Made by a program: the position numbers and the translations under genes | Notes under the pieces: model-generated | What the model saw: the letters and a program-made list of their open reading frames with translations, nothing else | Told to the model about the DNA's origin: nothing | Databases searched by the model: none | Shown: positions 2,487 to 62,242 of the stretch, piece by piece | Position numbering within the stretch: position 1 is the first letter of the stretch | Layout: every line of letters starts with the position of its first letter | Source of the DNA: Lachnospiraceae bacterium | GTDB lineage: Bacteria > Bacillota > Clostridia > Lachnospirales > Lachnospiraceae | NCBI GenBank assembly: GCA_024699045.1 | Contig: JAILQK010000133.1 | Coordinates: 1-62,242 of the forward strand | Direction: 5' to 3' | DNA: 62,242 bases

Positions 2487-2514
2487 TAAACTTATCGCGG
2501 GATTTAACCGATAA
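2487..2514 (+). promoter_or_regulatory. Sigma-28 (FliA/SigD)-type flagellar promoter
   Basis: TAAA at 2487-2490 and ACCGATAA at 2507-2514 are separated by 16 nt. The sigma-28 consensus is TAAA, about 15 nt, then GCCGATAA. It stands directly before the first gene of the flagellar block, which supports the assignment. The -10 box ends only 7 nt before the ATG at 2522, so the predicted transcript would begin at or next to the start codon. Confidence 0.65.
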
Positions 2515-2521
2515 ATTATAC

Positions 2522-5413
2522 ATGAGAATTGATTTTGATCAGCTGCAGGCAAAAAATATCGCAGATCCGCAGGTTTCGGCAGCGGCCACTAAAAACGGAT
2601 CGGCAAAAGACGCGTCAGGACCTTCCGGACTTACCGCTGGCGGTATAATGTTCGGTCACTCGGAAGACAATATCCTTTACCATGACAGGACGAAGAAGAG
2701 ATCCGTAGTGGATCAGGCAGCTCAGGCGGATGCTGTGGGGGTGGATACGCAGATGGATCAGATGCTCATCGTTGCGCAGACCATGTCGCCACAGGATGCG
2801 GGGAAGCTTGCCGAGGAAGGGTACAATATGAGTGAGATGGATCCTGAAGATGCGGTGAATTCGCTTGACCGCATTAAAGTCCGTCTGGCGCAGGCCGGAG
2901 TGAACGTTGCCGGGTACACGGATACGGTCTCATCCGTAAAAGTAGAGCAGATCACCGGATCGGCCGTAGCCTCGGGAGATCTGGCCACCGAAGATACCGT
3001 TACGGAAACCGCAAAGAAGGAGGATGCCTTTGTAAAGGACCGTCCGGCTGTAAATGAAGAAAAATATCTTACGAGCGGGATTTCGGACGACGAGATAAGT
3101 GAAACCCTTGAGGCATATGATCTTCCCGCTTCAAAGGAGAATATCGATTCTGTCAGGGAGGCTTTGAACGTGGCTTCCCAGCTTAAGAGTCTTACCGAAA
3201 ACGCCCGATTGTTTCTGGCAGGCGGAGACATGGAACCTACAATCAGAAACGTATTCACGGCAGAGTATTCGAGCGGTAAGGCACAGACCGGCGGAAATTC
3301 AAGATACATTGCTGATGATACGGGTTATGTGGGGCGTTCAGGAAATCTCGGGAGCGAGGCGATTACCGAAGAAAGCGGATTGTCCGGGATCGATGAGGCT
3401 TTTGCCAGACAGATCAGGGATACGATCGGACAGGCAGGGTATGAGGTTTCACCGGAACTGGAGAACCATGCGGTAAAAATGATAAATGCAGGAGTTCCAC
3501 TTACTGTTCAATCTATTCAAAGATATGAGGATGCGGGGAATATAGATATACGTCCGACCAGAAAAGAGGTAATGGAAGCGATCGCTTCAGGCGGGCGGGG
3601 AGTAGATGCTTATCTTATCTCCGATTACAAAAAGATCCGGGCGGAAAGGGTTACAAAAGAAGCAGCGATCTCCATGGCTGCTGAGGCAAATCTGAAAAAT
3701 ATAGATAAAGAGCTTAATCTGGACACGGATTATCTCGAAAAAGATGTTGAAACACTGAAGACCAGAGAAAAAGAGGTCTTTGATCTGCTTGAAGAAACGA
3801 TGTCCGCAAGATCCGAAATCCTCAGGAGCCCTGCGGCACTCGTAGCGGATAACGAGGTGATAAGGGCTTTTGCGGCAGCAGGCAGAAGCGATATGGTGCC
3901 GACCGGAACGCCTCAGGAACTGAATCTTGGAAAGCTGCATGATAAGGCGGTCAGCCTGACCCGCGATCATGAAAGAATGAACCGGACTTATGAGGCGGTC
4001 GGAACCGAGGTAAGGAAGGATCTGGGAGACAGTATCCGAAAGGCATTTGAGGGCACAGATTTTGATGCTGTCCTAAAAGGGTTTGGCATAGAGGACAATC
4101 CGCAAAATGAGAGGGCGGTACGTATCGCCGCATATTCAAATACGGAACTTACGGCAGAAAATATTGCCTCCATCAGCGCTGCAGATGACAGGCTGAATGC
4201 TGTGCTTGAAAAGCTCACGCCGCCGAGAGTGCTCAGAATGATACGGGAAAATATCAATCCGTTGGAGATCCCGGTCGATGAACTTGAGAGCAATCTTACA
4301 CGATATGAGGATGAAGAAGACCGTCCGGTGGAAGATTTTGCGAAATATCTGGTGGAGGAGAGGAACAAAGGTAATATAACCGATGCGGAAGCGACCTCGT
4401 ACATAGGCATATACAGGTTCATGAACCTTATCGATTCGGGAGATCATAGTGCAGTCGGGGCTGTTGTCGCAAGCGGCAGGGAAATGAACTTTTCAACTCT
4501 GCTGTCGGCTGCGCGCACCGGGAAAAAAGCGCATATTGACCGCTATATCGATAATAACTTCAACGGTTTGGATATTCCGGTCACACAGGGAAGTCCCCGT
4601 ATAGATCAGATGATACGGGCGGCCTTTTCTTCGGAAGATACGTCTCGGGAGCAATATCAGGATGAGGCCGGAAAGTTTGCGGAAGCAGCCAAAGCGGAGG
4701 AGGAGTTATACAGGGCTCTCGAGGAGGCCGGGATACCTAAAAGCGCTGCGAATATAACGGCATACGAGCAGCTGGTGGCAGAAGGCGGGAATCGGTTTGT
4801 AAGGGAACTCCGGGCCGGTGCCTCATCCAGGGCAGAGGAAAAAATACGAAAGGCCGAAAAGAAAGTGCAGGATGCTCTGGGAGACGGTGATGCCGAAAAA
4901 ATAAAGGAGTGCTACGATGAAATGGTAAAAGCCGAGCTCATAGGGGCTTTGGAGGGCGAGACCATCGATATAAGGGCGCTCAGATCGACCGACAAGGTAT
5001 TGCATATCAAGCAGGAACTCGCAAAAAAGGATGAATATCATATGCCGGTCGAGTTCAACGGTGAACTGATCAATATAAATTTAAAAATTAAGCATGGCGG
5101 AAATCAAAATTCTGTCGATATATATTTTGAGACCGAAGAATTCGGCTCTGTCCACGCCGAGCTCCGGGTGACGGACGGGATCCGGGGAGCTGTCAAGAGC
5201 GAGAGGACAGCCGGAGATGATTATATGAGAGAGCGGCTTGAAAGCATTACAAAAGCCGTGAGCGATACTTCGGGAAAAGAAACATATCTTAAGATCGGGA
5301 ATATGGATGTCCCCGATGATAACGAAGCCATGGATGGCGGGCAAGGCAACGAGGCCATGCTCTACCGTACGGCCAAAGCGGCCCTTAACGCAATGCTTGC
5401 ACAGGAAGCATAG
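2522..5413 (+). CDS. Large flagellar-region protein with FliK-like C-terminal domain (DUF6240-like)
   Basis: This 963-aa protein has no signal peptide or membrane segment and is rich in Ala, Glu, Asp and Arg with long predicted helices. The N-terminal 250 residues look disordered. Residues about 842-920 (from HMPVEFNGELININ, through FGSVHAELRV, to RERLESITKAV) resemble the C-terminal domain of the hook-length protein FliK in strand pattern. From memory it resembles proteins labelled DUF6240 in Lachnospiraceae flagellar regions; I could not verify this. A sigma-28-type promoter precedes it and flagellin follows after 61 nt, so a flagellar role (hook-length ruler, export or assembly) is likely. 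The ATG at 2522 has no Shine-Dalgarno. The next in-frame ATG (2648) has none either, so the first start was kept. Confidence 0.6.
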   Translation: MRIDFDQLQAKNIADPQVSAAATKNGSAKDASGPSGLTAGGIMFGHSEDNILYHDRTKKRSVVDQAAQADAVGVDTQMDQMLIVAQTMSPQDAGKLAEEGYNMSEMDPEDAVNSLDRIKVRLAQAGVNVAGYTDTVSSVKVEQITGSAVASGDLATEDTVTETAKKEDAFVKDRPAVNEEKYLTSGISDDEISETLEAYDLPASKENIDSVREALNVASQLKSLTENARLFLAGGDMEPTIRNVFTAEYSSGKAQTGGNSRYIADDTGYVGRSGNLGSEAITEESGLSGIDEAFARQIRDTIGQAGYEVSPELENHAVKMINAGVPLTVQSIQRYEDAGNIDIRPTRKEVMEAIASGGRGVDAYLISDYKKIRAERVTKEAAISMAAEANLKNIDKELNLDTDYLEKDVETLKTREKEVFDLLEETMSARSEILRSPAALVADNEVIRAFAAAGRSDMVPTGTPQELNLGKLHDKAVSLTRDHERMNRTYEAVGTEVRKDLGDSIRKAFEGTDFDAVLKGFGIEDNPQNERAVRIAAYSNTELTAENIASISAADDRLNAVLEKLTPPRVLRMIRENINPLEIPVDELESNLTRYEDEEDRPVEDFAKYLVEERNKGNITDAEATSYIGIYRFMNLIDSGDHSAVGAVVASGREMNFSTLLSAARTGKKAHIDRYIDNNFNGLDIPVTQGSPRIDQMIRAAFSSEDTSREQYQDEAGKFAEAAKAEEELYRALEEAGIPKSAANITAYEQLVAEGGNRFVRELRAGASSRAEEKIRKAEKKVQDALGDGDAEKIKECYDEMVKAELIGALEGETIDIRALRSTDKVLHIKQELAKKDEYHMPVEFNGELININLKIKHGGNQNSVDIYFETEEFGSVHAELRVTDGIRGAVKSERTAGDDYMRERLESITKAVSDTSGKETYLKIGNMDVPDDNEAMDGGQGNEAMLYRTAKAALNAMLAQEA

Positions 5414-5474: not shown

Positions 5475-6638
5475 ATGAAGATCAACAGCAATATCACAGC
5501 CTATATCACAAATAATGCCTATTCACAGAATGAGAAGAGGCTTTCCAAGTCGACAGCCAGACTTTCAAGTGGTTATAAACTTAATACATCAGGGGATGAT
5601 CCGGCCAATTTTGCGATCGCGGCAAAGATGAGATCGATGATCAAGGGTCTTGACAAGGTTCAGACAAATACAACGACCGGAATATCCGTGATCCAGACAG
5701 CGGAAGCTGCTATCGAGGAATCTCAGCTTATGATCCAGAGGATGAATGAGCTTGCGATCAAAGCATCCAACGGTACGATATCGAGTTCGGATCGCCAGAA
5801 CATTCAGGATGAAGTGGATCAGCTTATGAAAGAAATGGATCGTATCGCGGAAACAACCCAGTTTAACGGGATGAAGCTTCTGAACGGTTCATTTCAGGAT
5901 AAGGGATATACAAATAACAGCAAAGTGAGCATAATAGATTATTCGGAGGAAACGGTCGCAGGGAAATATCTTATGAAGCTGTCAAAAGGAAGCGATGGCA
6001 ACTATATCATAAATAATACCGGGAATGCCGGAAGCACAGGATATGAAGGCTATAAAGAAGTAGAGGAACTCTTTGGAAGCCTGGACACTTCAAAGATCTC
6101 CGTTAACACGGAAACCACCGAGGATGATGATGGGACTATAACGGAATATGTGAAGATAAAAGGCTTGCAGGGTTCGGAAATGCGCTTTAAGGTTGAAGCG
6201 GGAGCTGATCTCTCGGAGAATATCGAGCTGGATGTGACGGGACTGGGATCAATGCGTCTGCAGGTCGGCACCGAGGAGGGGGAAGTGATATCCGCATCCA
6301 TGCCTCTCATGACAACAGAGGCCATGGGGCTTTCCAATCTCAAAATGACAACAAAGGAAGATGCATACGAAGCTATAGACAAGGTCAATACAGCGATGGA
6401 GTACGTGAACCGGGCAAGATCCAGGATGGGAGCATATCAAAACCGTCTGGAGAATACGGATGCGTTCCTCGATGCATATAACGAAGATATAACTACTTCA
6501 CTTTCACGGATACAGGACACCGACATGGCTGAGGAGATGACGGAATTCACCAATGCCCAGATACTGACACAGGCAGGTATCAGCATGCTGTCGCAGGCGA
6601 ATGAAGCGCCCCAGCAGGCACTACAGCTGCTTCAGTAA
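5475..6638 (+). CDS. fliC: Flagellin
   Basis: This is the 387-aa filament subunit. The conserved N-terminal D0/D1 region (residues 1-140) contains RLSSGYKLNTSGDDPANFAIA and the ETTQFNGMKLLNG turn. The C-terminal D1/D0 region (about 295-387) contains the MAEEMTEFTNAQILTQAG segment and ends with the QALQLLQ helix. Residues about 145-290 form a variable, exposed domain. It has no cysteine. The Shine-Dalgarno AAAGAGGGA precedes the ATG. No sigma-28 promoter is visible in the 61-nt gap, so it is probably transcribed with the 963-aa gene. The FliS-like chaperone gene follows immediately. Whether it is the major or a minor flagellin of this organism cannot be told here. Confidence 0.95.
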   Translation: MKINSNITAYITNNAYSQNEKRLSKSTARLSSGYKLNTSGDDPANFAIAAKMRSMIKGLDKVQTNTTTGISVIQTAEAAIEESQLMIQRMNELAIKASNGTISSSDRQNIQDEVDQLMKEMDRIAETTQFNGMKLLNGSFQDKGYTNNSKVSIIDYSEETVAGKYLMKLSKGSDGNYIINNTGNAGSTGYEGYKEVEELFGSLDTSKISVNTETTEDDDGTITEYVKIKGLQGSEMRFKVEAGADLSENIELDVTGLGSMRLQVGTEEGEVISASMPLMTTEAMGLSNLKMTTKEDAYEAIDKVNTAMEYVNRARSRMGAYQNRLENTDAFLDAYNEDITTSLSRIQDTDMAEEMTEFTNAQILTQAGISMLSQANEAPQQALQLLQ

Positions 6639-23063: not shown

Positions 23064-23066
23064 TTT

Positions 23067-23094
23067 TTGCATCTTCTGACTTATGTGGTAAAAT
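23067..23094 (+). promoter_or_regulatory. Promoter abutting the DUF5711 start codon
   Basis: TTGCAT (23067-23072), a 16-nt spacer and TAAAAT (23089-23094) preceded by TGG (extended -10). Only 6 nt separate the -10 box from the ATG at 23101, so the transcript should begin at about the start codon. Confidence 0.6.
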
Positions 23095-23100
23095 ATCCGC

Positions 23101-24288
23101 ATGTCAGGTTTTACTTTAATAAAAGGAAACAGATCGGCAGAAGACGGAAATGCCGATAGAGAGATCCTGAAGCATCGTATCAGGAAGGTACTCAGGGTCG
23201 CGGCGCTGACTGCGGCCCTGATTTTTGTCATCTGGTTTATTCATCGTCTGTATCAGAACACCACTTTCAATGATTATGAAATTTTGTCAAAGGCAGTCCG
23301 GCAGGATTCGGAGACATCCGAATACATCGCATACAACGGTCATATCCTGAAACTGTCCAGGGACGGAGCTGAAGCCTTTGAGGGAACCGGGAAAGCCATA
23401 TGGAACGTTACATATGAAATGCAGGATCCAAAAGCGGCCACCTGCGGAGATTTTGTCGCGATAGCGGATGAGCAGGGCACGGAGATATATGTCGCATCCG
23501 CGGCGGAAGATATGCACAAGATATCGACCAAACTTCCGGTAATGGACATCAGTGTGTCAAAGCAGGGGGTGGTGGCTGCGGTACTGGAGGATGCCGGGAC
23601 ATCATGGATCCGGCTTTACGATAAGACCGGAAATGAATTGGCGTCAATAAAATGTACGATGTCGGAGAGCGGATATCCGATGGATATATCGATATCGCCC
23701 TCCGGTTATCTGCTGGCGGTCGCATATTCCCGGGTAGAAGGCGATTCCATGAGGAGTTCTGTCGCATTCTATAATTTCGGAGAGGTGGGCGCGAATGAGA
23801 GCGACCATTATATGAGCGGGTATGATTTCACCGGGACGATGATCCCGAGAGTCAAGTTCTTAAACGATTCCACCGCATTTGCGATAGGAACGGATAAAAT
23901 GATCATTTTCGGGGGAGATCAGAAACCGGAAAAAAAATATGAATACAGCTTCGACAGCAGGATAAAGGGGGTCTTTTACAGCGAAGACCGTATAGTTCTT
24001 GTAAGGGAGAGCGCTATCGAAGGTGGATTTTCTGCGTCGGTATTCAATCTGTCCGGTGAGGAGCTGCTCACGATCCCGTTTGATTTTGATTATATTGATG
24101 TACAGGTCAGCAAAAAGAGGATAGTGATATACAGTGATACACATATGATGATATGTGATATGAGAGGTACCGTAAAATACGACGGAGCGCTTGACGATTC
24201 CACTCTGCTGGTGTCCGCAACAGACAATACGAGAAGATATATACTGGTGAACCGGGAGACCGTCAAGCTGATACAGCTTATCAAATAA
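23101..24288 (+). CDS. Membrane-anchored DUF5711-type protein
   Basis: The 395-aa protein has a basic cytoplasmic N terminus (residues 1-33), a single membrane anchor at about 34-53, and a large extracytoplasmic part made of short repeated beta segments, such as NGHILKLSRDGAEAF, VVAAVLEDAGTSWIRLYDKTG and DISISPSGYLLAVAYSR. These look like propeller blades. The layout matches the clostridial DUF5711 family, of unknown function. There is no Shine-Dalgarno; a promoter ends 6 nt before the ATG. A CvpA-like membrane protein follows after 11 nt, so the two may form a small envelope unit. Confidence 0.75.
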   Translation: MSGFTLIKGNRSAEDGNADREILKHRIRKVLRVAALTAALIFVIWFIHRLYQNTTFNDYEILSKAVRQDSETSEYIAYNGHILKLSRDGAEAFEGTGKAIWNVTYEMQDPKAATCGDFVAIADEQGTEIYVASAAEDMHKISTKLPVMDISVSKQGVVAAVLEDAGTSWIRLYDKTGNELASIKCTMSESGYPMDISISPSGYLLAVAYSRVEGDSMRSSVAFYNFGEVGANESDHYMSGYDFTGTMIPRVKFLNDSTAFAIGTDKMIIFGGDQKPEKKYEYSFDSRIKGVFYSEDRIVLVRESAIEGGFSASVFNLSGEELLTIPFDFDYIDVQVSKKRIVIYSDTHMMICDMRGTVKYDGALDDSTLLVSATDNTRRYILVNRETVKLIQLIK

Positions 24289-24910: not shown

Positions 24911-25187
24911 TGCCGTGACGCGATAGCAAAGAAGCGGAAGTTGCTGCCGTCGGGTCGACATCTGTGGTGTCGGGATCCGGATAAGGCAGGTAATTTCGTG
25001 GAGCGAATGTCAAGTCATCGATACTGGCGACGAAGTCACTGTACAGCGATTGGATGGAGCGAAGCCCGCAGGGAACTGGCTCCGGACATAGATAAGCCTG
25101 AAATTGTGTTTTATATATATAGGACACACGCGGCAATGTGTACAGTCACCGATCCAAATTTTTATTATTAAGGAGGCGACTTTTTTT
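24911..25187 (+). ncRNA. Structured 5' leader of the S10 operon (candidate autoregulatory r-protein leader)
   Basis: This 277-nt untranslated leader can form several hairpins read directly from the sequence: GACG/CGTC (24917-24920 with 24948-24951) enclosing AGCAA/TTGCT (24925-24929 with 24941-24945); CGACA/TGTCG (24956-24960 with 24968-24972); TTCG/CGAA (24995-24998 with 25004-25007); GGAGC/GCTCC (25056-25060 with 25079-25083); and ACACA/TGTGT (25124-25128 with 25137-25141). S10 operons in other bacteria are controlled by an L4-binding leader, and computational S10 leader motifs have been proposed for Clostridia. I cannot confirm which ligand acts here. No stem followed by a T-run is obvious. 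Confidence 0.6.
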
Positions 25188-40548: not shown

Positions 40549-40577
40549 TTGATTGCGACAGGGTTTTATTGTATATT
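40549..40577 (+). promoter_or_regulatory. Promoter abutting the ecfA1 start codon
   Basis: TTGATT (40549-40554), a 17-nt spacer and TATATT (40572-40577). The ATG of ecfA1 at 40587 is only 9 nt from the -10 box, so the leader would be 0-3 nt. Confidence 0.6.
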
Positions 40578-40586
40578 AAACGCGTT

Positions 40587-41450
40587 ATGGCTATTGTAGA
40601 GACTAAAGATCTGAGCTTTGATTATATCCGCCGGGATGATGAGGGCAATGTATCCTCGGTCAACCGGGCGCTGAACGATGTGGACCTCTCCGTTGAAAAA
40701 GGAGAGTTCATTGCGATACTCGGAGGCAACGGATCCGGAAAATCAACGCTTGCCAAGCATATAAATGCGATATTATATCCAACGGAAGGATATGTACTCG
40801 TAGATGGCGAGAATACTTCGGATGAGACAAAGACTCTTTCCATACGGCAGAAAGCGGGAATGATCTTCCAAAATCCGGACAATCAGATTATAGGATCGAT
40901 AGTCGAAGAGGACGTAGGGTTCGGTCCGGAGAATATCGGGATGCCGACCAAAGAGATCTGGGAAAGAGTGGAGGAGGCATTAAAGATCCTCGGCATGTGG
41001 GAATATCGTAAACACTCTCCCATGCGGCTGTCTGGAGGACAAAAACAGAGGGTTGCGATAGCGGGAGTCGTAGCGATGCATCCGAAATGTATAATTATGG
41101 ACGAGCCTACAGCGATGCTCGATCCCGTCGGACGAAAGGACGTGATCAGAGCGGCAAGGGCGCTTAATGATGTGGAACAGGTCACGGTGATACTCATCAC
41201 GCATTATATGGAAGAAGTGGTGTATGCGGACAGGGTATTTGTCATGGAGCATGGGAATATCAGGATGACGGGGACACCCAGAGAGATATTTTCTAGAGTC
41301 GAGGAACTGGAGGAACTTAGATTAAACGTGCCTCAGGCTACAAGACTTGCATATGAGCTGAAAAAGAGGGGGCTGTCGGAGCTTCCGGATGGAATACTTA
41401 CGGAGAAGGAGCTTGTAGCAGAGCTATGTCGATTATACTCGACCATATAA
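40587..41450 (+). CDS. ecfA1: ECF transporter ATPase A1
   Basis: The 287-aa ATPase powers energy-coupling-factor vitamin and metal uptake. Walker A is GGNGSGKST with K52, the signature is LSGGQKQR, Walker B is CIIMDEP, and ITHYMEEV holds the switch His. It pairs with ecfA2 and ecfT and serves substrate-binding S subunits encoded elsewhere. The ATG at 40587 matches the family N terminus (MAIVETKDLSF). It lacks a Shine-Dalgarno; an earlier in-frame TTG overlaps the -10 box and is unlikely. The 3' end overlaps ecfA2 by 25 nt. Confidence 0.96.
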   Translation: MAIVETKDLSFDYIRRDDEGNVSSVNRALNDVDLSVEKGEFIAILGGNGSGKSTLAKHINAILYPTEGYVLVDGENTSDETKTLSIRQKAGMIFQNPDNQIIGSIVEEDVGFGPENIGMPTKEIWERVEEALKILGMWEYRKHSPMRLSGGQKQRVAIAGVVAMHPKCIIMDEPTAMLDPVGRKDVIRAARALNDVEQVTVILITHYMEEVVYADRVFVMEHGNIRMTGTPREIFSRVEELEELRLNVPQATRLAYELKKRGLSELPDGILTEKELVAELCRLYSTI

Positions 41451-46590: not shown

Positions 46591-48881
46591 TGGCAGTTAT
46601 TGACGATGCGATAAAAGTAAAGGGACACGGGGCATACCTTATAAAGGGAAAAGAATTCAGCGACACCTCGGATATTTCAAGAGATGAGGCATTAAAGGGA
46701 ACCATGGCATATGGGATACTCAGATCGCATAACATGTCAGACAATATGGATTCATTGAATATTAAATTTGACTGTCTGACATCACATGACATCACTTATG
46801 TCGGTATAATACAGACACTGAGAGCGTCCGGGATAGAAAGATTTCCTGTGCCGTATATACTTACGAACTGTCATAATTCATTATGCGCAGTCGGCGGGAC
46901 CATCAATGAGGATGATCATGTCTTCGGACTTTCCGCAGCAAAACGTTACGGCGGAGTTTATGTCCCCCCTCATCAGGCTGTTATTCATCAGTATGCAAGG
47001 GAGATGCTCGCCGGATGCGGAAAGATGATACTCGGGTCAGATTCGCATACCCGGTACGGTGCTCTGGGAACGATGGCCATGGGAGAAGGAGGCGGTGAAC
47101 TGGTAAAACAGCTGTTGTCGCAGACCTATGATATCAGACGGCCTGAAGTAGTATCGATCCATCTGACCGGAACTCCGGGATACGGGGTCGGACCGCAGGA
47201 TGTGGCGCTTGCCCTGATCGGAAAGCTTTTTGCCGACGGAACGGTTAAAAACAAGGTAATGGAGTTTACCGGGCCGGGAGTCGGAGCGTTATCAGTGGAT
47301 TTTCGTATCGGAGTTGATGTGATGACCACAGAGACAACATGCCTTTCCTCAATCTGGGAGACAGATGAGAAAACGGAAGAATGGCTTGCACTCCACGGCA
47401 GGGCAGATGATTACAGGGAACTGAAGCCGGCGGATATCGCCTGGTATGACGAAGTGGTCGAGGTTGATCTTGGCAGGATCAGGCCGATGATCGCCATGCC
47501 GTTCCATCCTTCCAATGCATACGCGATAGATGAAGTCAATGCGAACCTGAAGGATGTGCTTCATGAGGTTGAGGAGAGAGCTGAGGTGTCGTTTGGAGGA
47601 AGAGTCCGTGTGGATCTGACAAAAAAGGTTCATGACGGCAAGCTTCTCGTGGATCAGGGGATAATAGCCGGTTGTGCGGGAGGAGGATTCGAAAATCTCT
47701 GTGCGGCAGCGGATATACTTGAAGGCGCAGATATCGGATCGGACGAGTTTACCATGAGTGTATACCCGGCCTCGATGCCGGTTTATGCCGAGCTTGTGAA
47801 AAACGGCGCCATGACCAGATTCATTGATGCCGGAGTGGTGGTGAAGACCTGTTTCTGCGGACCGTGTTTCGGAGCCGGAGATACTCCGTCCAATAATGCA
47901 TTTTCTGTCAGGCATTCGACCAGGAACTTCCCCAACAGAGAGGGATCCAAGGTGCAGAACGGCCAGATCTCATCGGTGGCCCTGATGGATGCAAGATCGA
48001 TCGCGGCTACGGCGGCAAACAAAGGGTATCTTACCGGAGCCGACAAGCTGGATGTCAGGATAGGAGAGTATAAGTATTTCTTTGACAGAAATATCTATGA
48101 AAAGCGTGTATTTGATTCAAAAGGGAAGGCAGACGAATCCAAAGATGTAGTTCTCGGCCCCAACATAAAGGACTGGCCGGAAATGGTCCCGCTTACGGAC
48201 AATCTCATGCTCCGTGTAGTGTCGGAGATCCATGACCCTGTCACTACAACGGATGAGCTGATACCTTCGGGAGAAACCTCCTCTTACAGATCCAATCCTC
48301 TGGGACTGGCAGAATTTACTCTTTCACGTAAGGATCCGGAGTATGTGGGACGGGCAAAAGCCGTCAGGATGTTTGAAGAGGCCAGGGAAAAAGGAACGGC
48401 TCATCTTGAAAAGGCTCTTGAGGGATCGGAAGACATGGGCGCGGCATGGAGCCGGATCCGAGCATCCTATGACGGAGCGGATTGGAGCAATACAGGGATA
48501 GGCTCTGTGATATTTGCCGTAAAACCCGGAGACGGCTCGGCCAGGGAACAGGCGGCGTCGTGTCAGAAAGTGCTTGGCGGATGGGCCAATATAGCAAATG
48601 AATATGCCACGAAGCGATACAGATCAAACCTGATAAACTGGGGGATGATCCCTTTTATAATACCTGAGGGAGAGCTTCCTTTCAAAAATCTAGACTATAT
48701 CTTCCTGCCCGGGATAAGAAGAGCTATAGAGGAAAAGGAAAGTGAGATAAAGGCAGTAGCCATAACCGGCGCGGGATCAAAGGAATTCAGTCTGACCATA
48801 GGAGACCTTACGGATCATGAGAGAGAGATAATCCTGGATGGCTGTCTGATCAATTTCAATCGGAAAAACCAAGCCGTTTAA
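46590..48881 (+). CDS. Aconitase-superfamily hydratase (uncharacterised subgroup)
   Basis: The 763-aa protein has the aconitase architecture: the [22 protein letters not shown] segment (about 150), an iron-sulphur set from [10 protein letters not shown] (first Cys, about 365) and [12 protein letters not shown] (other Cys, about 428), and the swivel domain with [20 protein letters not shown]. The usual GSSREH motif reads GSAREQ. It may hydrate/dehydrate a citrate-like or 2-methyl-citrate-like acid. No citrate synthase, isocitrate dehydrogenase or leuB is nearby, so substrate is unknown. ATG 46590 is 7 nt after GGAGG; a GTG at 46587 is also possible. Confidence 0.8.
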
Positions 48882-49905
48882 GACCATTCAGCGCGGGCTC
48901 ATAAGAGCCCGCTTTTTTATAATACAAAACGGCTTTTGTGTGATCCCCCAATACTTCGCAGATTACTCCGCAATTATACCAGGCCGCATAAGAATCCGTT
49001 CCTGCCACCGATGAGTGATGGCATTTGGTCGCACAGGTAAATGAGGCAACGGCTTCTTCAAAACGGGCATTGTTCATATATATCAGACCGCATAGGAAGA
49101 GATAATCCGCGCTGTCGGCATACTCTTCAAATGAGGTGAGGGCCAGAGCGTCCTTGGCACGACCGGTTTCCAGCAGAGAATAGCCATAGGTTTCGATAAG
49201 CGATTCCACATATTCGTCTGCGGTGTCGGCTCCGGCATCGATGGCTTTTTCAAATGCATCCGAGGCTTCGGGATATCTCTTCTCAACGTAATAAGTCCTG
49301 CCCAGCTGAAAAAAGACATAGGGGTCGGTATCTCCGTCCGCTATCATCCTTGTAAGAAGCTCCCGGTACGATGCGGATTTTTGGAGCATCCGGTCATGGT
49401 CGGCATAGCCGGAATGCCCGAGGATGATGTCGGCATTCTCGGTCGAAAACGGAGCGCCGTCGTTTGCGGTTACCTGTTCATGAACCCTTCCTTCGAAATG
49501 AAACATCCGGTTTCTGAAGAGGCGTGTGATGCGCTCTGTATTGCTGAGAGCATTATCTTCGGAAACATAAATGTTTTCACGTATCACACGGAATGCATCA
49601 ACACGGGCCTTTTTTTCATCGAAATCGAAAGTGGTGATATATTCATCGGTGTCGATCATGAGAACCCAGTCCGAAGTTACATGCTTCAGCCCGGCGTTTC
49701 TTGCGGCGGAGTAATCCCCGGGCCATGGAAGAAAGATCTCCTTTGCGCCGTATTCAAACAGGAGCTCATCTGTTGTATCATTTTCCACAGGTGAGGGGTC
49801 GACAACGGCCACTATCTCTGATACAATTCCCCGTATGGAGGAAAGGCAGCGTTTTAGCTCGCGGCACTCCCCTCTTTTTATTATCATAGCTGCGGATATT
49901 GACAT
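48856..49905 (-). CDS. Family 2 glycosyltransferase with TPR repeats
   Basis: The 349-aa protein starts [21 protein letters not shown], the usual opening of the TPR-containing GT2 group. The donor-binding site is MIDTDEYI (about 88-95), EGRVHEQV comes at about 138, and from about residue 195 tetratricopeptide repeats follow ([25 protein letters not shown], and later [17 protein letters not shown] and [22 protein letters not shown]). ATG 49905 is set by homology and lies 7 nt after the -10 box; upstream in-frame ATGs read through promoter sequence. It is the only minus-strand gene I support. Substrate unknown; neighbours suggest surface or flagellar glycan. Confidence 0.85.
48893..48918 (+). 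terminator. Terminator after the hydratase
   Basis: An 8-bp GC-rich stem GCGGGCTC/GAGCCCGC (48893-48900 with 48905-48912), an ATAA loop and six T's. It lies inside the 3' end of the convergent minus-strand gene and ends the ecfA1-to-hydratase run. Confidence 0.9.
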
Positions 49906-49912
49906 ACCATAT

Positions 49913-49941
49913 ATTGTATGATACATACGGTAAATGGTCAA
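49913..49941 (-). promoter_or_regulatory. Promoter abutting the TPR-glycosyltransferase start
   Basis: On the minus strand TTGACC (49941-49936), a 17-nt spacer and TACAAT (49918-49913). The start codon begins only 7 nt after the -10 box. There is no Shine-Dalgarno. Confidence 0.65.
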
Positions 49942-50008
49942 AATATTAGGTCGCGGGTGATTGTTCAAAATTATAAACAATCTTTTTGTGAAAAATCTCT
50001 GAAACCCC

Positions 50009-50037: not shown

Positions 50038-50114
50038 TAAAACGTATAAATGGATTATTATACGATAAGTGTATTGTCCGCTGACTATCAAGGAGGAAAG
50101 GAGGGGACGTCAAT

Positions 50115-51416
50115 ATGGCATCATTAGCATTACAGAATGTCTATAACAATTTCTTGCCGCAGTTCATGCCCAAGAGTTCACGTTACGACACACATAAAAA
50201 AGACGAGTTAAGAGACGTATATACAGCCATAATGCGTCAGACCAAAGAGTCGCCGCTGTTCCTTCCTTTGTCCGGAGAAAATGTGATCGAGTACGCTGTC
50301 AACATGAAGGAGAATGCAAGGGATCTCAGCAATGTCATAGCTTCTCTTTCAAATGACAAGTCCTTAAATCTTCTGGATAAGAAGACGGCCTTCTCCACCG
50401 ATGAGGATGTGGCGGTTGCAAAATATATCGGAGATGATAATTCTGTCGAGGCGGATGAGGTGCCTTCGTTTGATCTCGGAGTTCGCAGGCTTGCATCAAA
50501 GCAGGTAAATATGGGGTCATACATTGATAATGGTGCAATGACGCTTGAGCCGGACACATATTCATTTGATATACATATCGGGGATACGGATTATGAGTTC
50601 CAGTTTAATGTCGAGCCGGGAGACACCAACAGGGAGATGGAAGAGAAGCTGGCAAGACTTATAAACCGAAGCAATATCGGAGTCGAGGTGTCCGTGGTAT
50701 CTGATGAAGCGGGAAGATCCGCTCTCAGGATAGAGAGTATGGCTACGGGACAGCCGGGAGAAAAAGAGACGCTGTTCAACGTGTCAGACGACAATACCAG
50801 CAAGAGGACCGGAGCGGTAGACTATTTTGGACTCGGTGAAGTAACGGAAATGCCGAAAAATGCGGAATTTTCGCTCAACGGAAATATGCATAGCGCTTAT
50901 TCCAATTCATTTACGATAGATAAGGCCTACGAGATAACACTTAAGGGATTGAGCGAGGAAGGTCAGGATGCTCATATAGGACTTCGTCCGGATGTCGAGT
51001 CGCTCATAGAAAATGTTGAGAGCCTTGTCGAAGGATATAACTCGTTCATAACCAAGGCTATGGACTATACTGAGACATATGGGCTTTCCAATAAGTTCAG
51101 GAATGAAATGAGGAGTATCCAGAATGTATATCGTAACGAGCTGGATGCGATCGGGCTTAGTTTTAAGGAAAGCGGAGAGCTGGAGATAGACGATAAATAT
51201 CTGAGAGCTGCGGCATTTGAAGGTGATCATAATGAGACTCTCAGGCCTATCACGGATTTTGCAAGTGAGATACTTTTGGAGGCAAAAAAGATATCACTGA
51301 ATCCGATGAATTATACAGACAGGATAGTAGTGGAATATAAGAACCCCGGACATAATTTTTCCAATCCTTATATCACAAGCATGTATTCCGGGATGATGTT
51401 CAGTTCTTATACATGA
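50115..51416 (+). CDS. FliD-like flagellar cap/hook-associated protein (short, divergent)
   Basis: The 433-aa protein has a FliD-like middle: SFDIHIGDTDYEFQFNVEPGDTNREMEEKLARLINRSNIGVEVSVV (two adjoining segments at about 155-195), IESMATG, a bulky EMPKNAEFSLNG segment, and ESLVEGYNSFITKA near residue 300. The C terminus has NPYITSMYSGMMFSSYT. It lacks the canonical N-terminal SGLDTDSIV-type helix of FliD, so it may be a cap variant or a FliD-related assembly factor. AGGAGG lies before the ATG. It is flanked by a divergent promoter and a bidirectional-looking terminator. Confidence 0.6.
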   Translation: MASLALQNVYNNFLPQFMPKSSRYDTHKKDELRDVYTAIMRQTKESPLFLPLSGENVIEYAVNMKENARDLSNVIASLSNDKSLNLLDKKTAFSTDEDVAVAKYIGDDNSVEADEVPSFDLGVRRLASKQVNMGSYIDNGAMTLEPDTYSFDIHIGDTDYEFQFNVEPGDTNREMEEKLARLINRSNIGVEVSVVSDEAGRSALRIESMATGQPGEKETLFNVSDDNTSKRTGAVDYFGLGEVTEMPKNAEFSLNGNMHSAYSNSFTIDKAYEITLKGLSEEGQDAHIGLRPDVESLIENVESLVEGYNSFITKAMDYTETYGLSNKFRNEMRSIQNVYRNELDAIGLSFKESGELEIDDKYLRAAAFEGDHNETLRPITDFASEILLEAKKISLNPMNYTDRIVVEYKNPGHNFSNPYITSMYSGMMFSSYT

Positions 51417-51589: not shown

Positions 51590-53218
51590 ATGAGCAGAAG
51601 ACTGTCGGGAAAAAAACACGATAATATAACAGACAACACTCCACTTTCCAAAAAGGTTCTGAAAGATGTTGTCGCTATATACATATTTTTCATGTTTGCG
51701 GTATATCCGCTGTATTACGAGGATAAATACTACAACATGGGAGATGCCAAGTGGCATTTCTTCAGGTGGGTCACGCTTGTCGGACTTATCATTATGGGCA
51801 TTGTGTTTATCTGGTATCAGGCGCATCTGGTCAGAGTGGGAAAGTTTGCGAGCTTTTGGGATTTCAGGCAAACCTCCGTTACGGACCGCTTTGTGCTGGC
51901 CTATGCATTAGCTGTTTTGAGTTCTTTCCTTTTATCTCCATATAAGGCTACTACACTGATCGGTTACGACGGATGGTATATGGGGCTGATCTCTCAATTG
52001 GCGTTTGTGTTGATCTATTATTTTGTGTCCCGGTTCTGGAGATGGGATGACCTTGTATTGATCATATATCTTGTAGTATCTGCGATCGTCTTTCTCATCT
52101 GTATCCTTAACAGGTTTAAGATAGACCCGTTAGAGATGTATAAGGATCTTTCGGAATACTATTTCATATATTTTGTTTCCACGCTTGGCCAGGCGACATG
52201 GTTTTCAAGCTATATGATCCTGATGTTCCCTATGGGATTATTCTTTTTCTGGCATAGTGACAAAGGGGTAAAGTATATAGTATCCGCGTTGTATGTGCTT
52301 CTGGGGACGGTAACCATGATAGCGCAGAATTCCGATGCGGCGCTGCTGGCTTACGCGGCGATCTATCTGATCCTGTTCTGCGCTTCGTTTAATGATAACC
52401 TGAGAATGAGAAGATTTTTGGAAAGCCTCATACTTCTGTTTGCCGGATGGAAGATAATGGGGATCCTTCAGGTAGTCTGTGCGGAAAGGGCAGTAAAACT
52501 TACGGGTGCGATGCGGGCTCTGTCGGTCGGTCCCATAAGCTGGATCCTTCTTGCGATCTCTGTCGTGCTAATGGTGCTGTATCGCAGACTTATGGAGAGG
52601 GACGGCTTTGATATAGGCAGATATAAGCCGTTCAGAAGGGCAGTGCTCGTATTTACGGTATTTGCCGTGGTTGCTCTCGTCATATATGTGGCCTTAAATA
52701 CCATGGGCGTTTTTGCGGGAACGCCGTTGGAATCTAATGCCGAATATCTGGTATTCAATTACAAATGGGGAAGTGACAGGGGGCTGTCATGGATCGCCGC
52801 TGTAGGGACTTTCATCAAGACCGATCCGGTCAGGAAGCTTTTCGGCGCCGGACCTGACGGATTCTGTCATGAGGTTTATCGTTTTTATTCCGAGCCGCTT
52901 GAGGCCAAGTGGGGTGAAAGTACCATTCTTACCTGCGCTCATAACGAATGGCTTAATTCTCTGATAACGGTAGGGCTTTTGGGGATGATCACGTATGTGG
53001 GGATCTTTATAAGCGGGTTTGTCAACTGTATGCGGAAGATGTCCAGGGTGCCGGAAACTTTGGCGGTTGCTATGTGTATCGCAGCGTATATGGCACATAA
53101 TTTTTTCTGCTATCAGCAGATCATATGCACTCCGGCAATCTTTATGATAATCGGAGCGGGTGATATGCTGTGCAGATACGGGAAACGGGAAATATGGGAA
53201 CCGGAAGGCGATATATAA
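51590..53218 (+). CDS. O-antigen ligase/polymerase-like membrane protein
   Basis: The 542-aa protein has about 11-12 membrane segments. The large extracytoplasmic loop near the C terminus (about 395-455) contains RGLSWIAAVGTFIKTDP, FGAGPDGFCHEVY and the conserved CAHNEWLNSLITVGLLG, the hallmark of the Wzy/WaaL (O-antigen ligase) superfamily. Such proteins join or polymerise lipid-linked glycans outside the membrane. Gram-positive members act on surface polysaccharides or glycoproteins. AGAAGG precedes the ATG. A UDP-galactopyranose mutase gene follows. Confidence 0.8.
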   Translation: MSRRLSGKKHDNITDNTPLSKKVLKDVVAIYIFFMFAVYPLYYEDKYYNMGDAKWHFFRWVTLVGLIIMGIVFIWYQAHLVRVGKFASFWDFRQTSVTDRFVLAYALAVLSSFLLSPYKATTLIGYDGWYMGLISQLAFVLIYYFVSRFWRWDDLVLIIYLVVSAIVFLICILNRFKIDPLEMYKDLSEYYFIYFVSTLGQATWFSSYMILMFPMGLFFFWHSDKGVKYIVSALYVLLGTVTMIAQNSDAALLAYAAIYLILFCASFNDNLRMRRFLESLILLFAGWKIMGILQVVCAERAVKLTGAMRALSVGPISWILLAISVVLMVLYRRLMERDGFDIGRYKPFRRAVLVFTVFAVVALVIYVALNTMGVFAGTPLESNAEYLVFNYKWGSDRGLSWIAAVGTFIKTDPVRKLFGAGPDGFCHEVYRFYSEPLEAKWGESTILTCAHNEWLNSLITVGLLGMITYVGIFISGFVNCMRKMSRVPETLAVAMCIAAYMAHNFFCYQQIICTPAIFMIIGAGDMLCRYGKREIWEPEGDI

Positions 53219-53233
53219 GGTATGGGAGGTAAA

Positions 53234-54355
53234 ATGTACGATTATCTGATTGTCGGAGCGGGTCTGTTCGGAGCGGTTGTGGCACGTGAACTGACTGATG
53301 CGGGAAAGAGAGTCCTTGTCATAGATCGAAGGGATCATGTTGCGGGAAATACATATACCGAAAGAGCAGAAGGGATAAATGTACATCGATACGGGGCTCA
53401 TATTTTTCATACAAACGATCCTGTTTCGTGGAAGTATGTGAATCGTTTTGCTGAATTCAACCGTTATACCAACTCGCCGATTGCCGATTACAAGGGAGAA
53501 TTGTATTCTCTTCCCTTTAATATGTATACCTTTAATAAAATGTGGGGGGTGGTGACCCCGGAAGAAGCTGCAAAAAAAATAGAGGAGCAGAGGCAGGAGA
53601 TCAAAGGGGAACCGCGAAATCTCGAGGAACAGGCAATATCACTGGTTGGAAGGGATATTTATGAGAAGCTGATAAAGGGATATACGGAAAAGCAGTGGGG
53701 GAGACAGTGCAGTGAACTGCCGTCATTCATAATAAAAAGACTCCCGGTAAGGTTTACGTACGATAATAATTACTTTAATGCCCTGTATCAGGGAATACCG
53801 AAAGGCGGCTACACAAAGCTTGTACAGAACATGTTATCCGGAATAGATACAGAGCTTGGGACTGACTTCCTTAAGGACAGGGATGCTCTTAGGGCAAGGG
53901 CCGGACGGTTGATCTATACCGGGCCTATAGACGCATATTTTGATTACAGTCTGGGACATTTGGAGTATCGATCGCTCCGCTTTGAGACTGAGCTTCTGGA
54001 TATCCCGAATTATCAGGGGAACGCAGTGGTGAACTATACCGACAGAGAGACCCCATGGACAAGGCTTATAGAGCATAAATGGTTCGAATTCGGAAAAGAT
54101 GAGGACGGAAACGATCTGCCGAAGACGGTGATATCCAAAGAGTACAGTATGGACTGGCATCCGGGAGACGAACCATACTATCCGGTAAACGACGAGGAGA
54201 ACGGAAGGCTGTATCGGGAGTACAGACAGCTTGCCGACAGGGAGAAGGATGTCATTTTCGGAGGACGTCTCGGAGAATACAAATATTACGATATGGATCA
54301 GGTTGTCTCAAAGGCGCTGGAAGTCTCGCACTGTTTGACAGTCCCCCAAAATTAA
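53234..54355 (+). CDS. glf: UDP-galactopyranose mutase
   Basis: The flavoenzyme makes UDP-galactofuranose for surface glycans. The 373-aa protein has the FAD Rossmann motif VGAGLFG (about 7-13), RRDHVAGN, the GAHIFHTNDPVSWKYVNRF segment, and the C-terminal GRLGEYKYYDMDQVV loop with conserved arginines. ATG 53234 follows GGGAGG closely and gives the family start MYDYLIVGAG; the ATG at 53222 is less likely. It follows the ligase-like gene by 15 nt, so Galf probably goes into a glycan handled there. Confidence 0.95.
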   Translation: MYDYLIVGAGLFGAVVARELTDAGKRVLVIDRRDHVAGNTYTERAEGINVHRYGAHIFHTNDPVSWKYVNRFAEFNRYTNSPIADYKGELYSLPFNMYTFNKMWGVVTPEEAAKKIEEQRQEIKGEPRNLEEQAISLVGRDIYEKLIKGYTEKQWGRQCSELPSFIIKRLPVRFTYDNNYFNALYQGIPKGGYTKLVQNMLSGIDTELGTDFLKDRDALRARAGRLIYTGPIDAYFDYSLGHLEYRSLRFETELLDIPNYQGNAVVNYTDRETPWTRLIEHKWFEFGKDEDGNDLPKTVISKEYSMDWHPGDEPYYPVNDEENGRLYREYRQLADREKDVIFGGRLGEYKYYDMDQVVSKALEVSHCLTVPQN

Positions 54356-54363
54356 GCGAGAAT
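54335..54363 (+). promoter_or_regulatory. Promoter overlapping the end of glf and abutting tsaE
   Basis: A perfect TTGACA (54335-54340), a 17-nt spacer and GAGAAT (54358-54363, four of six consensus bases). The ATG of tsaE is 7 nt further on, so the transcript could be leaderless. Confidence 0.45.
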
Positions 54364-54370
54364 AAAAAAT

Positions 54371-54811
54371 ATGAGAGCGGTAGAGACGTCATCGGCCGGT
54401 GAAACATTTGAACTGGCCCGGAATATCGGAGAAAAAGCGTTTCCCGGAGAGGTGATTGGACTTACGGGAGATCTGGGTACCGGAAAGACGGTCTTTGCGA
54501 AGGGGATAGCGGCCGGGCTTGGTATAACAGAGAGGGTCAATTCCCCGACTTTTACGATAATGCAGCAGTACGATGGCGGCAGATTGCCACTTTACCATTT
54601 TGATGTGTACCGCATCGGTGACATTTCCGAAATGGACGAGACCGGCTATGAAGATTATTTTTACGGCAAAGGGGTCTCAATCGTGGAGTGGGCCGAAACG
54701 ATCAAAGAGATAATGCCTGAAGATACCGTATGGATAACGATAGAAAAAGATCTGAAAAACGGGACGGATCACAGGCGGGTGAGTATAGAAGATGAACATA
54801 CTGGCAATTGA
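54371..54811 (+). CDS. tsaE: tRNA threonylcarbamoyladenosine biosynthesis ATPase
   Basis: TsaE is an ATPase that works with TsaB and TsaD to form t6A37 on ANN-decoding tRNAs. The 146-aa protein has Walker A GDLGTGKT (about 33-40), the SPTFTIMQQY segment, HFDVYRI, and VEWAE. The start overlaps no gene and has no Shine-Dalgarno. Its 3' end overlaps tsaB by 20 nt. Confidence 0.96.
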   Translation: MRAVETSSAGETFELARNIGEKAFPGEVIGLTGDLGTGKTVFAKGIAAGLGITERVNSPTFTIMQQYDGGRLPLYHFDVYRIGDISEMDETGYEDYFYGKGVSIVEWAETIKEIMPEDTVWITIEKDLKNGTDHRRVSIEDEHTGN

Positions 54812-61741: not shown

Positions 61742-61827
61742 GGAGAGGTATCGAAGCGGTCATAACGAGGCGGTCTTGAAAACCGTTTGGCGGCAACGCC
61801 ACATGGGTTCGAATCCCATCCTCTCCG
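61742..61827 (+). tRNA. tRNA-Ser (anticodon UGA)
   Basis: The 86-nt gene has a 7-bp acceptor stem GGAGAGG/CCTCTCC with discriminator G, a long variable arm (type II tRNA), GGTTCGAATCC as the T arm, and the anticodon loop CTTGAAA with anticodon TGA. CCA is not encoded. It reads UCN serine codons. Confidence 0.96.
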
Positions 61828-61902
61828 TCGGGGAGAAACGATTGATACGCCCCGAAAGACCGAATATGGCAGTGGATAGGACCACTTGATTTTCAGACCT
61901 TT

Positions 61903-61992
61903 GGAGAAGTACCCAAGATGGCTGAAGGGACACCCCTGGAAAGGGTGCAGGTCGTTAATAGCGGCGCGAGGGTTCAAATCCCTCCTTCTCCG
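61903..61992 (+). tRNA. tRNA-Ser (anticodon GGA)
   Basis: The 90-nt type II tRNA has acceptor stem GGAGAAG/CTTCTCC with discriminator G. The anticodon stem-loop is CACCC-CTGGAAA-GGGTG with anticodon GGA, there is a long variable arm, and GGTTCAAATCC is the T arm. CCA is not encoded. The 75-nt spacer to the first tRNA contains CGGGG/CCCCG and AGTGG/CCACT pairings. Confidence 0.96.
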
Positions 61993-62151
61993 GTAGCACC
62001 TTGAAAATTAAACAGCAATGCAGCTTTGAAAAAAACCAATAAAAAGTTTGATTCAGAGTAAAGCGAACAAAACCAAGACAAACAGTAAGTGAACGGAGCA
62101 AAAGAAAAAGAAGCCGAGTTCAGACTGAAGGGTTCGCAACTCAAAGGATAT
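61993..62151 (+). promoter_or_regulatory. 16S rRNA leader with a boxA-like antitermination motif
   Basis: The 159-nt spacer has no gene. AGCACCTTGAAAATTAAAC at its start resembles the boxA-type leader motif of rRNA operons. The rest is A-rich and G-rich and probably pairs with the 16S trailer for RNase III processing, which cannot be checked here because the 16S gene is cut. Confidence 0.4.

Positions 62152-62242
<91 letters not shown>

Follow-up and report, generated by a model that had tools for sequence, protein, structure and literature searches.

The window analysed here, the whole stretch of 62,242 nt of contig JAILQK010000133.1 from a Lachnospiraceae bacterium (GCA_024699045.1), carries five genes, encoding a DUF6240 protein, a DUF5711 protein, the transporter ATPase EcfA1, a GT2 glycosyltransferase and TsaE, whose starts lack a strong Shine–Dalgarno (SD) site and are preceded by a promoter-like box ending 6–9 nt upstream, as a preliminary description of this DNA had stated. 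All these features were read in the sequence and are detailed in Table 1. In window order, the distances from box to start were 7, 6, 9, 7 and 7 nt, the 9 nt of ecfA1 lying at the edge of the leaderless criterion (about 6–8 nt), and the SD pairing energies were 0.0, -2.8, +0.9, +0.9 and -4.4 kcal/mol. An SD of -6 kcal/mol or better was present in 65% of the 209 genes called in the own-genome sample. Pairs of sigma-A type, with a -35/-10 spacing of 17 nt in each, were found at four sites (23101, 40587, 49905 on the minus strand and 54371), the GT2 site being exactly as described previously, TTGACC-17-TACAAT-7-ATG. The fifth site, at 2522, had also been assigned a -35/-10 pair; no good sigma-A pair was found there, and its box is CCGATAA, of the flagellar sigma-D/FliA type. 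No leader RNA was detected at the five sites with Rfam at the gathering cut-off.

Table 1. Genes, promoter elements and hairpin at the five sites of the window.
Feature	Position	Strand	Remarks
TAAA, candidate sigma-D -35 element, DUF6240 gene	2487..2490	+	
CCGATAA, sigma-D type -10	2508..2514	+	7 nt before DUF6240 ATG
DUF6240 gene	2522..5413	+	
Flagellin gene	5475-6638		Directly downstream of DUF6240 gene
-35-like TTTGCA, DUF5711 gene	23066..23071	+	
Extended -10 TGgTAAAAT	23089..23094	+	6 nt before DUF5711 ATG
DUF5711 gene	23101..24288	+	
Terminator-like hairpin after L17 gene	40462..40500	+	Upstream of ecfA1 promoter; -23.3 kcal/mol, z -6.1
-35 TTGATT, ecfA1	40549..40554	+	17 nt to -10
-10 TATATT	40572..40577	+	9 nt before ecfA1 ATG
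EcfA1 energy-coupling factor transporter ATPase gene	40587..41450	+	
GT2 glycosyltransferase gene, with TPR repeats	48856..49905	-	ATG at 49905 (49905-49903)
-10 TACAAT, GT2/TPR gene	49913..49918	-	7 nt before ATG
-35 TTGACC, GT2/TPR gene	49936..49941	-	Read in sequence
FliD-like gene	50115-51416		Adjoining GT2 gene
-35 TTGACA, tsaE	54335..54340	+	Within end of upstream gene
-10 GAGAAT, tsaE	54358..54363	+	7 nt before ATG; weak, 4/6
TsaE gene	54371..54811	+	

Other features of the window were also recorded. Operator-like repeats, GTATG-tat-CATAC-aatatatg-GTATG (49903-49928, minus strand), overlap the -10 and the ATG of the GT2 gene and are partly kept in G035 (genomes are cited by number). An S10-Clostridia ribosomal protein leader (RF03136) lies at 24921-25033, and the order and lengths of the genes after it resemble those of the S10-spc-alpha ribosomal protein operon; L17 at its end, which was checked, is followed by ecfA1. 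The window closes (61742-62242) with two tRNA genes and a 16S rRNA gene that the contig end truncates after its first 90 nt.

A total of 61 genomes was searched with each of the five proteins, up to 30 loci per protein were taken and their upstream regions were read. The named relatives (n = 35) were all Lachnospiraceae, many of them from rumen samples, and the closest listed was strain AC3007, with 85% identity in DUF5711. When four proteins of 25 genomes were concatenated and the resulting tree was rooted at its midpoint, 12 genomes including the own genome formed a monophyletic clade with a support of 1.0; AC3007, which is not among the 25, was placed with the clade by its DUF5711 identity. 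Most of the genomes are incomplete MAGs. The 16S-tail pattern was present in G032, G056 and G057 and had no match in seven of the ten assemblies, among them the own genome, AC3007 and four other clade genomes. Orthologues were scored by a script that allowed boxes at 4–10 nt and accepted lower scores than were required in the genome samples described below (4–9 nt). All 30 loci were scored for DUF5711 and 28 for EcfA1 (G007 and G010 were excluded by contig edges), together with 21 for GT2 (nine distant or edge loci omitted), 24 for TsaE (six weaker ones omitted) and 16 for DUF6240, where partial and distant loci were omitted, among them those of clade members G022 and G017.

Within the clade, a box near the start together with the lack of a strong SD was found in all ten scored orthologues of DUF6240, in 12/12 of DUF5711, always at 6 nt from the ATG, in 10/12 of EcfA1 (box absent in G002 and G035), in 6/9 of GT2, at 6–7 nt (absent in G002, G023 and G033), and in 8/11 of TsaE. 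The last count rose to 10/11, with the box absent in G024, when G017 and G033 were read by hand; the script had placed both starts 15 nt too far downstream, and the start of the gene caller lies 8 nt after the box. Among the matches listed, no close GT2 orthologue was present in G021, G022 or G024, and no TsaE match in G002. An SD of -6 kcal/mol or better was found in none of the 54 scored clade orthologues of the five families. In the region upstream of DUF5711, TG-n-TA-n-A-a-T and a TTT at -36 to -34 are kept and most other positions vary, and the tsaE -10 reads GAAAAT at 8 nt in six of 11 clade members. Read by eye in the sampled DNA of AC3007, DUF5711 has TATAAT, DUF6240 CCGATAT and GT2 TACAAT, each at 7 nt; the EcfA1 box is absent there, and TsaE falls outside the sampled DNA.

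Outside the clade the box was present in seven of 65 orthologues, distributed as 0/6 for DUF6240, 1/18 for DUF5711, 1/16 for EcfA1, 4/12 for GT2 and 1/13 for TsaE. The four GT2 boxes belong to a sister group (G001, G013, G026 and G029), the TsaE set includes G039, from another genus, and the outer DUF5711 match, in G009 and with a weak SD, is probably false. Strong SD sites were found in 5/6 (DUF6240), 4/18 (DUF5711), 2/16 (EcfA1), 4/12 (GT2) and 6/13 (TsaE) of these outside members. The remaining ones mostly show neither signal, partly because some of the starts, which were placed by script, are wrong; the TsaE starts of G007, G013 and G014 are probably misplaced. An O-antigen ligase-like gene of the window (51590-53218) has a start context with a weak SD (-5.6) that differs from that of its orthologues in G023 and G033, where TACAAT/TATAAT is found at 7 nt from the ATG, a possible further change of initiation type.

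The sequence before DUF6240, TAAA-N17-CCGATAA, follows the sigma-D promoter pattern (TAAA, 15–18 nt to CG, and a -10 of CCGATAA type). The CCGATAA box was present in nine of ten clade orthologues, and a sigma-A reading of the 2522 promoter was rejected in its favour; the TAAA -35 was present in two of the three clade members examined. In G024 a sigma-A TATAAT, 6 nt before the ATG, stands in place of the sigma-D box at nearly the same distance, and in G018 and G035 a sigma-A pair scores as well. FliA (TIGR02479) was above cut-off in 7/7 genomes searched, the own genome included (G000:C44), and DUF6240 is predicted to be transcribed by sigma-D/FliA. A search for SigD-type sites in the sampled DNA gave no second leaderless sigma-D gene.

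Among the outside relatives of DUF6240, G013 and G029 have TAAA-N15-CCGATAT upstream of an SD-led gene, with 128 and 102 nt, respectively, from the first base of the box to the start. In G007, CCGATAT lies 86 nt upstream and TAAA is absent, and G012 has CCGATAA about 62 nt before the start (-161 as counted from residue 34); no box of sigma-D type was found within 260 nt in G001 and G026. Since the outside relatives are SD-led, and two of them have a sigma-D promoter about 100–130 nt upstream, the promoter seems to have been kept and the leader lost. The leaderless arrangement of DUF6240 was probably derived within the clade, a direction of change that we infer from these comparisons. For DUF6240 there is good support for a shift from SD-led to leaderless, a shift that is suggested for TsaE, and the usual mode of initiation has apparently been replaced for at least one gene.

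To estimate the frequency of such starts, genes were called in sampled DNA of eleven groups, with neither SD sites nor promoters taken into account, and genes at 70 nt or less from the end of a stretch, as well as TTG starts, were left out of the promoter counts. In the own-genome sample (243 kb, 209 genes, 51 with ATG or GTG and no SD), a strict promoter pair 4–9 nt before the start was found in five genes, the controls being 0.0 in shuffles and 0 in the 10–15 nt bin. Three of these five are sites of the window; the GT2 site was not counted because the gene caller placed its start six codons downstream, nor the 2522 site because a sigma-D box falls outside the sigma-A matrix. The clade sample plus AC3007 (985 genes, 211 with ATG or GTG and no SD) gave 20 strict pairs at 4–9 nt versus three at 10–15 nt and 1.2 in shuffles, and 13 of the 20 genes belong to DUF5711, EcfA1 or TsaE. 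Among the SD-led genes of the clade sample, a strict promoter at 4–9 nt was found in 0/637 versus 5.0 in shuffles, partly because the SD site fills the place of the box.

Since the contigs from which the clade MAG stretches came were known to carry the five families, the 20 of 211 repeat a few orthologues, and the counts were made again without these families. The result was 7/960 genes for the clade (about 0.9 expected), 17/1554 for the whole genus and 0/406 for the order-level genomes (Fisher's test versus order level, 0.11 for the clade, which thus shows no difference, and 0.03 for the genus). With the families included, the four order-level genomes gave 0/408 strict pairs and one at a looser threshold. 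AC3007 alone, without the five families, had three pairs at 4–9 nt, two at 10–15 nt and two at 16–21 nt, with no clear peak. Among 120 reciprocal-best-hit clusters across the sampled stretches, whose overlap is small, a shared box was found in three, two of them among the five families.

The preliminary description had proposed a genome-wide habit. The strict count of the clade sample favours it weakly, and the own genome shows no excess of the exact pattern: TATAAT-N5-8-ATG occurred 163 times in the whole genome versus 180 for a shifted control. The same comparison gave 1170/1054 for six close relatives together, 519/517 for G032, 243/238 for G027 and 137/166 for G057. A reversed-pattern control had suggested a strong excess of TATAAT, which the shifted control traced mostly to the frequency of TATAAT itself, and it was given no weight as regards a habit. 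A single -10 matrix compared with its column permutations gave nine matches versus a mean of 3.5 in the own genome, 16 versus 9.9 in the clade MAGs and nine versus 5.0 (maximum 11) in AC3007; this matrix was too blunt, and the -35 and -10 were therefore scored together. By the strict test, leaderless genes would make up about 1% of genes, and the window appears unusually rich in them.

Transcription start points follow a pyrimidine–purine rule. This rule is stated for the species studied in PMC4782308. A pyrimidine at -1 was found in 25 of 27 candidates of the clade sample versus 284 of 600 SD-led genes (Fisher's test, 1.5e-6, orthologues counted separately), as the rule predicts if the A of the ATG is +1, and in 14 of 17 strict matches of the genus without the five families. 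The outside relatives of DUF6240 also have a pyrimidine at -1 (6/6), so that this sign is uninformative for that gene.

A terminator-like hairpin was located within 60 nt of the ATG in seven of the 54 clade orthologues, and in some relatives the promoter sits in or against the terminator-like hairpin of the upstream gene. After correction of two misplaced starts, the hairpin ends about 22–44 nt before the ATG in six of the 54, three of ecfA1 (G005, G021 and G024) and three of tsaE (G017, G033 and G023), which leaves scant room for a leader. The distance is 22 nt for tsaE of G023, and was read as 37 nt in G017 and G033 with the misplaced start. In these three tsaE loci (L094, L096, L097), the upstream gene's hairpin encloses the -35 TTGACA, and its T tract extends in the direction of the -10. 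The ecfA1 genes of G025, G006, G028 and G027 (L055, L056, L058, L060), of which the last 40 nt were read, have a GGGAGAG...CTCTCCC hairpin and a T-rich stretch, followed by the ATG; both SD and promoter box are absent between hairpin and ATG.

Genes without SD tend towards A/T-rich upstream sequence. The five genes might accordingly have ordinary leaders, transcribed from promoters further upstream and translated without SD, with the A/T-rich boxes acting as an unstructured landing sequence for the ribosome. Column-permuted -10 matrices also match near starts, and the many outside orthologues with neither SD nor box indicate that SD-less starts exist beyond the clade. Such an explanation is nevertheless unlikely in view of the conservation of promoter-like bases and spacing, namely TTGACA, the extended -10, CCGATAA and the constant 6 nt of DUF5711, of the lack of strict promoters at this distance from SD-led genes (a lack due in part to the SD filling the place), and of the little space that the hairpins leave in six clade orthologues.

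Chance clustering of promoter-like hexamers in one window would agree with the exact-pattern counts of the own genome and is hardly to be expected where up to 12 genomes keep the boxes at a constant or almost constant distance and the other upstream sequence has largely diverged. The starts themselves could be wrong, with another, SD-led codon being used: the gene caller chose a downstream codon for GT2, EcfA1 has an in-frame TTG upstream (40569), to which a weak SD-like AGGG stands at 5 nt, and GT2 has an in-frame TTG at 50091 and ATG at 49926 upstream. However, the N-terminal sequences of the clade are conserved from the ATGs of Table 1, the EcfA1 TTG is not general among the relatives read, and the alternative GT2 starts, 49887 and 49926, lack a strong SD. 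For DUF6240, DUF5711 and TsaE there is no in-frame ATG, GTG or TTG between the upstream stop and the start, and misplacement of the five starts is very improbable.

With a probability of about 80%, the five genes belong to a small, conserved and lineage-specific set of leaderless or nearly leaderless genes, a minority beside SD-led genes. Leaderless or nearly leaderless transcription, as proposed in the preliminary description, is well supported by the spacing between box and ATG, fixed or nearly fixed across the clade, and by the lack of strong SD sites in the clade orthologues, with the -1 pyrimidine as weaker support. From the sequence we infer the following course. The promoters, of sigma-A type for four genes and of sigma-D/FliA type for DUF6240 beside flagellin, would overlap the usual place of leader and SD, so that RNA polymerase would start at the A of the ATG or no more than about 3 nt away from it; boxes at 8–10 nt could give a leader of 1–4 nt. 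The mRNA would be leaderless or nearly so and would be translated without an SD interaction. The arrangement characterises a single clade within the genus and is shared for GT2 with G001, G013, G026 and G029. More tentatively, and with somewhat less than even probability, this clade of rumen Lachnospiraceae may have made leaderless genes out of genes that were SD-led or had some other leader, in at least one case by loss of the leader between promoter and ATG. Among them would be a flagellar gene still under sigma-D control, and some promoters are placed in the terminator of the upstream gene, so that the clade would be a natural experiment in becoming leaderless.

Gene callers that rely on SD sites could misplace leaderless starts. 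As leaderless-type and SD-led orthologues (DUF6240, partly TsaE) occur in one genus, with strain AC3007 close, the change can be tested directly, together with how it works and what it costs in expression. The authors of the start-site map of Lachnoclostridium phytofermentans asked whether leaderless transcription is equally uncommon in related bacteria (PMC5171806). No paper on such a leaderless set in this genus was found in the open-access literature.

Leaderless genes are widespread in bacteria, and were reported in 56 of 209 Firmicutes genomes, with a mean of 4.2% and a concentration in Lactobacillales and Mycoplasma (PMC3160421). Within the Clostridia, leaders shorter than 10 nt are reported for about 70 mRNAs (about 2%) of C. 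autoethanogenum (PMC6873888). The leaderless cases reported for the others are 15 genes in C. difficile (PMC7438776), 212 transcripts within the proteomically identified gene set of C. acetobutylicum (PMC4533764) and, for L. phytofermentans, 4% of the intergenic start sites (PMC5171806). The earlier remark that leaderless mRNAs are unusual for Firmicutes was thus overstated, as 15 genes to a few percent are reported in these four Clostridia, one of them a member of the Lachnospiraceae. Since leaderless genes were already reported in Clostridia, their kind is known, and what is added here is the conservation over a clade, the lack of SD and the sigma-D case. In the four species a small leaderless fraction was measured in single strains, whereas here the arrangement was read from sequence and is conserved over a clade. 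The candidates of L. phytofermentans are described as generally keeping a ribosome-binding site and another upstream start site (PMC5171806), in contrast to the lack of a strong SD here.

The genes resemble the TA-led genes of Zheng et al. 2011 (PMC3160421), which have a TANNNT box about 10–12 bp upstream and no SD; that paper also describes homologous genes that differ in their type of initiation, as is suggested here. They differ in belonging to a genus of Lachnospiraceae, and the sigma-D gene would escape a method based on sigma-70. The TAAA-N17-CCGATAA of DUF6240 fits the SigD promoters reported for C. difficile (PMC3865298), with 15–18 bases from TAAA to CG and CCGATAA in CD0226 and fliC. 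The five RACE-mapped start sites given for that species have leaders of 28–164 nt (PMC3865298), whereas the box described here ends 7 nt before the ATG.
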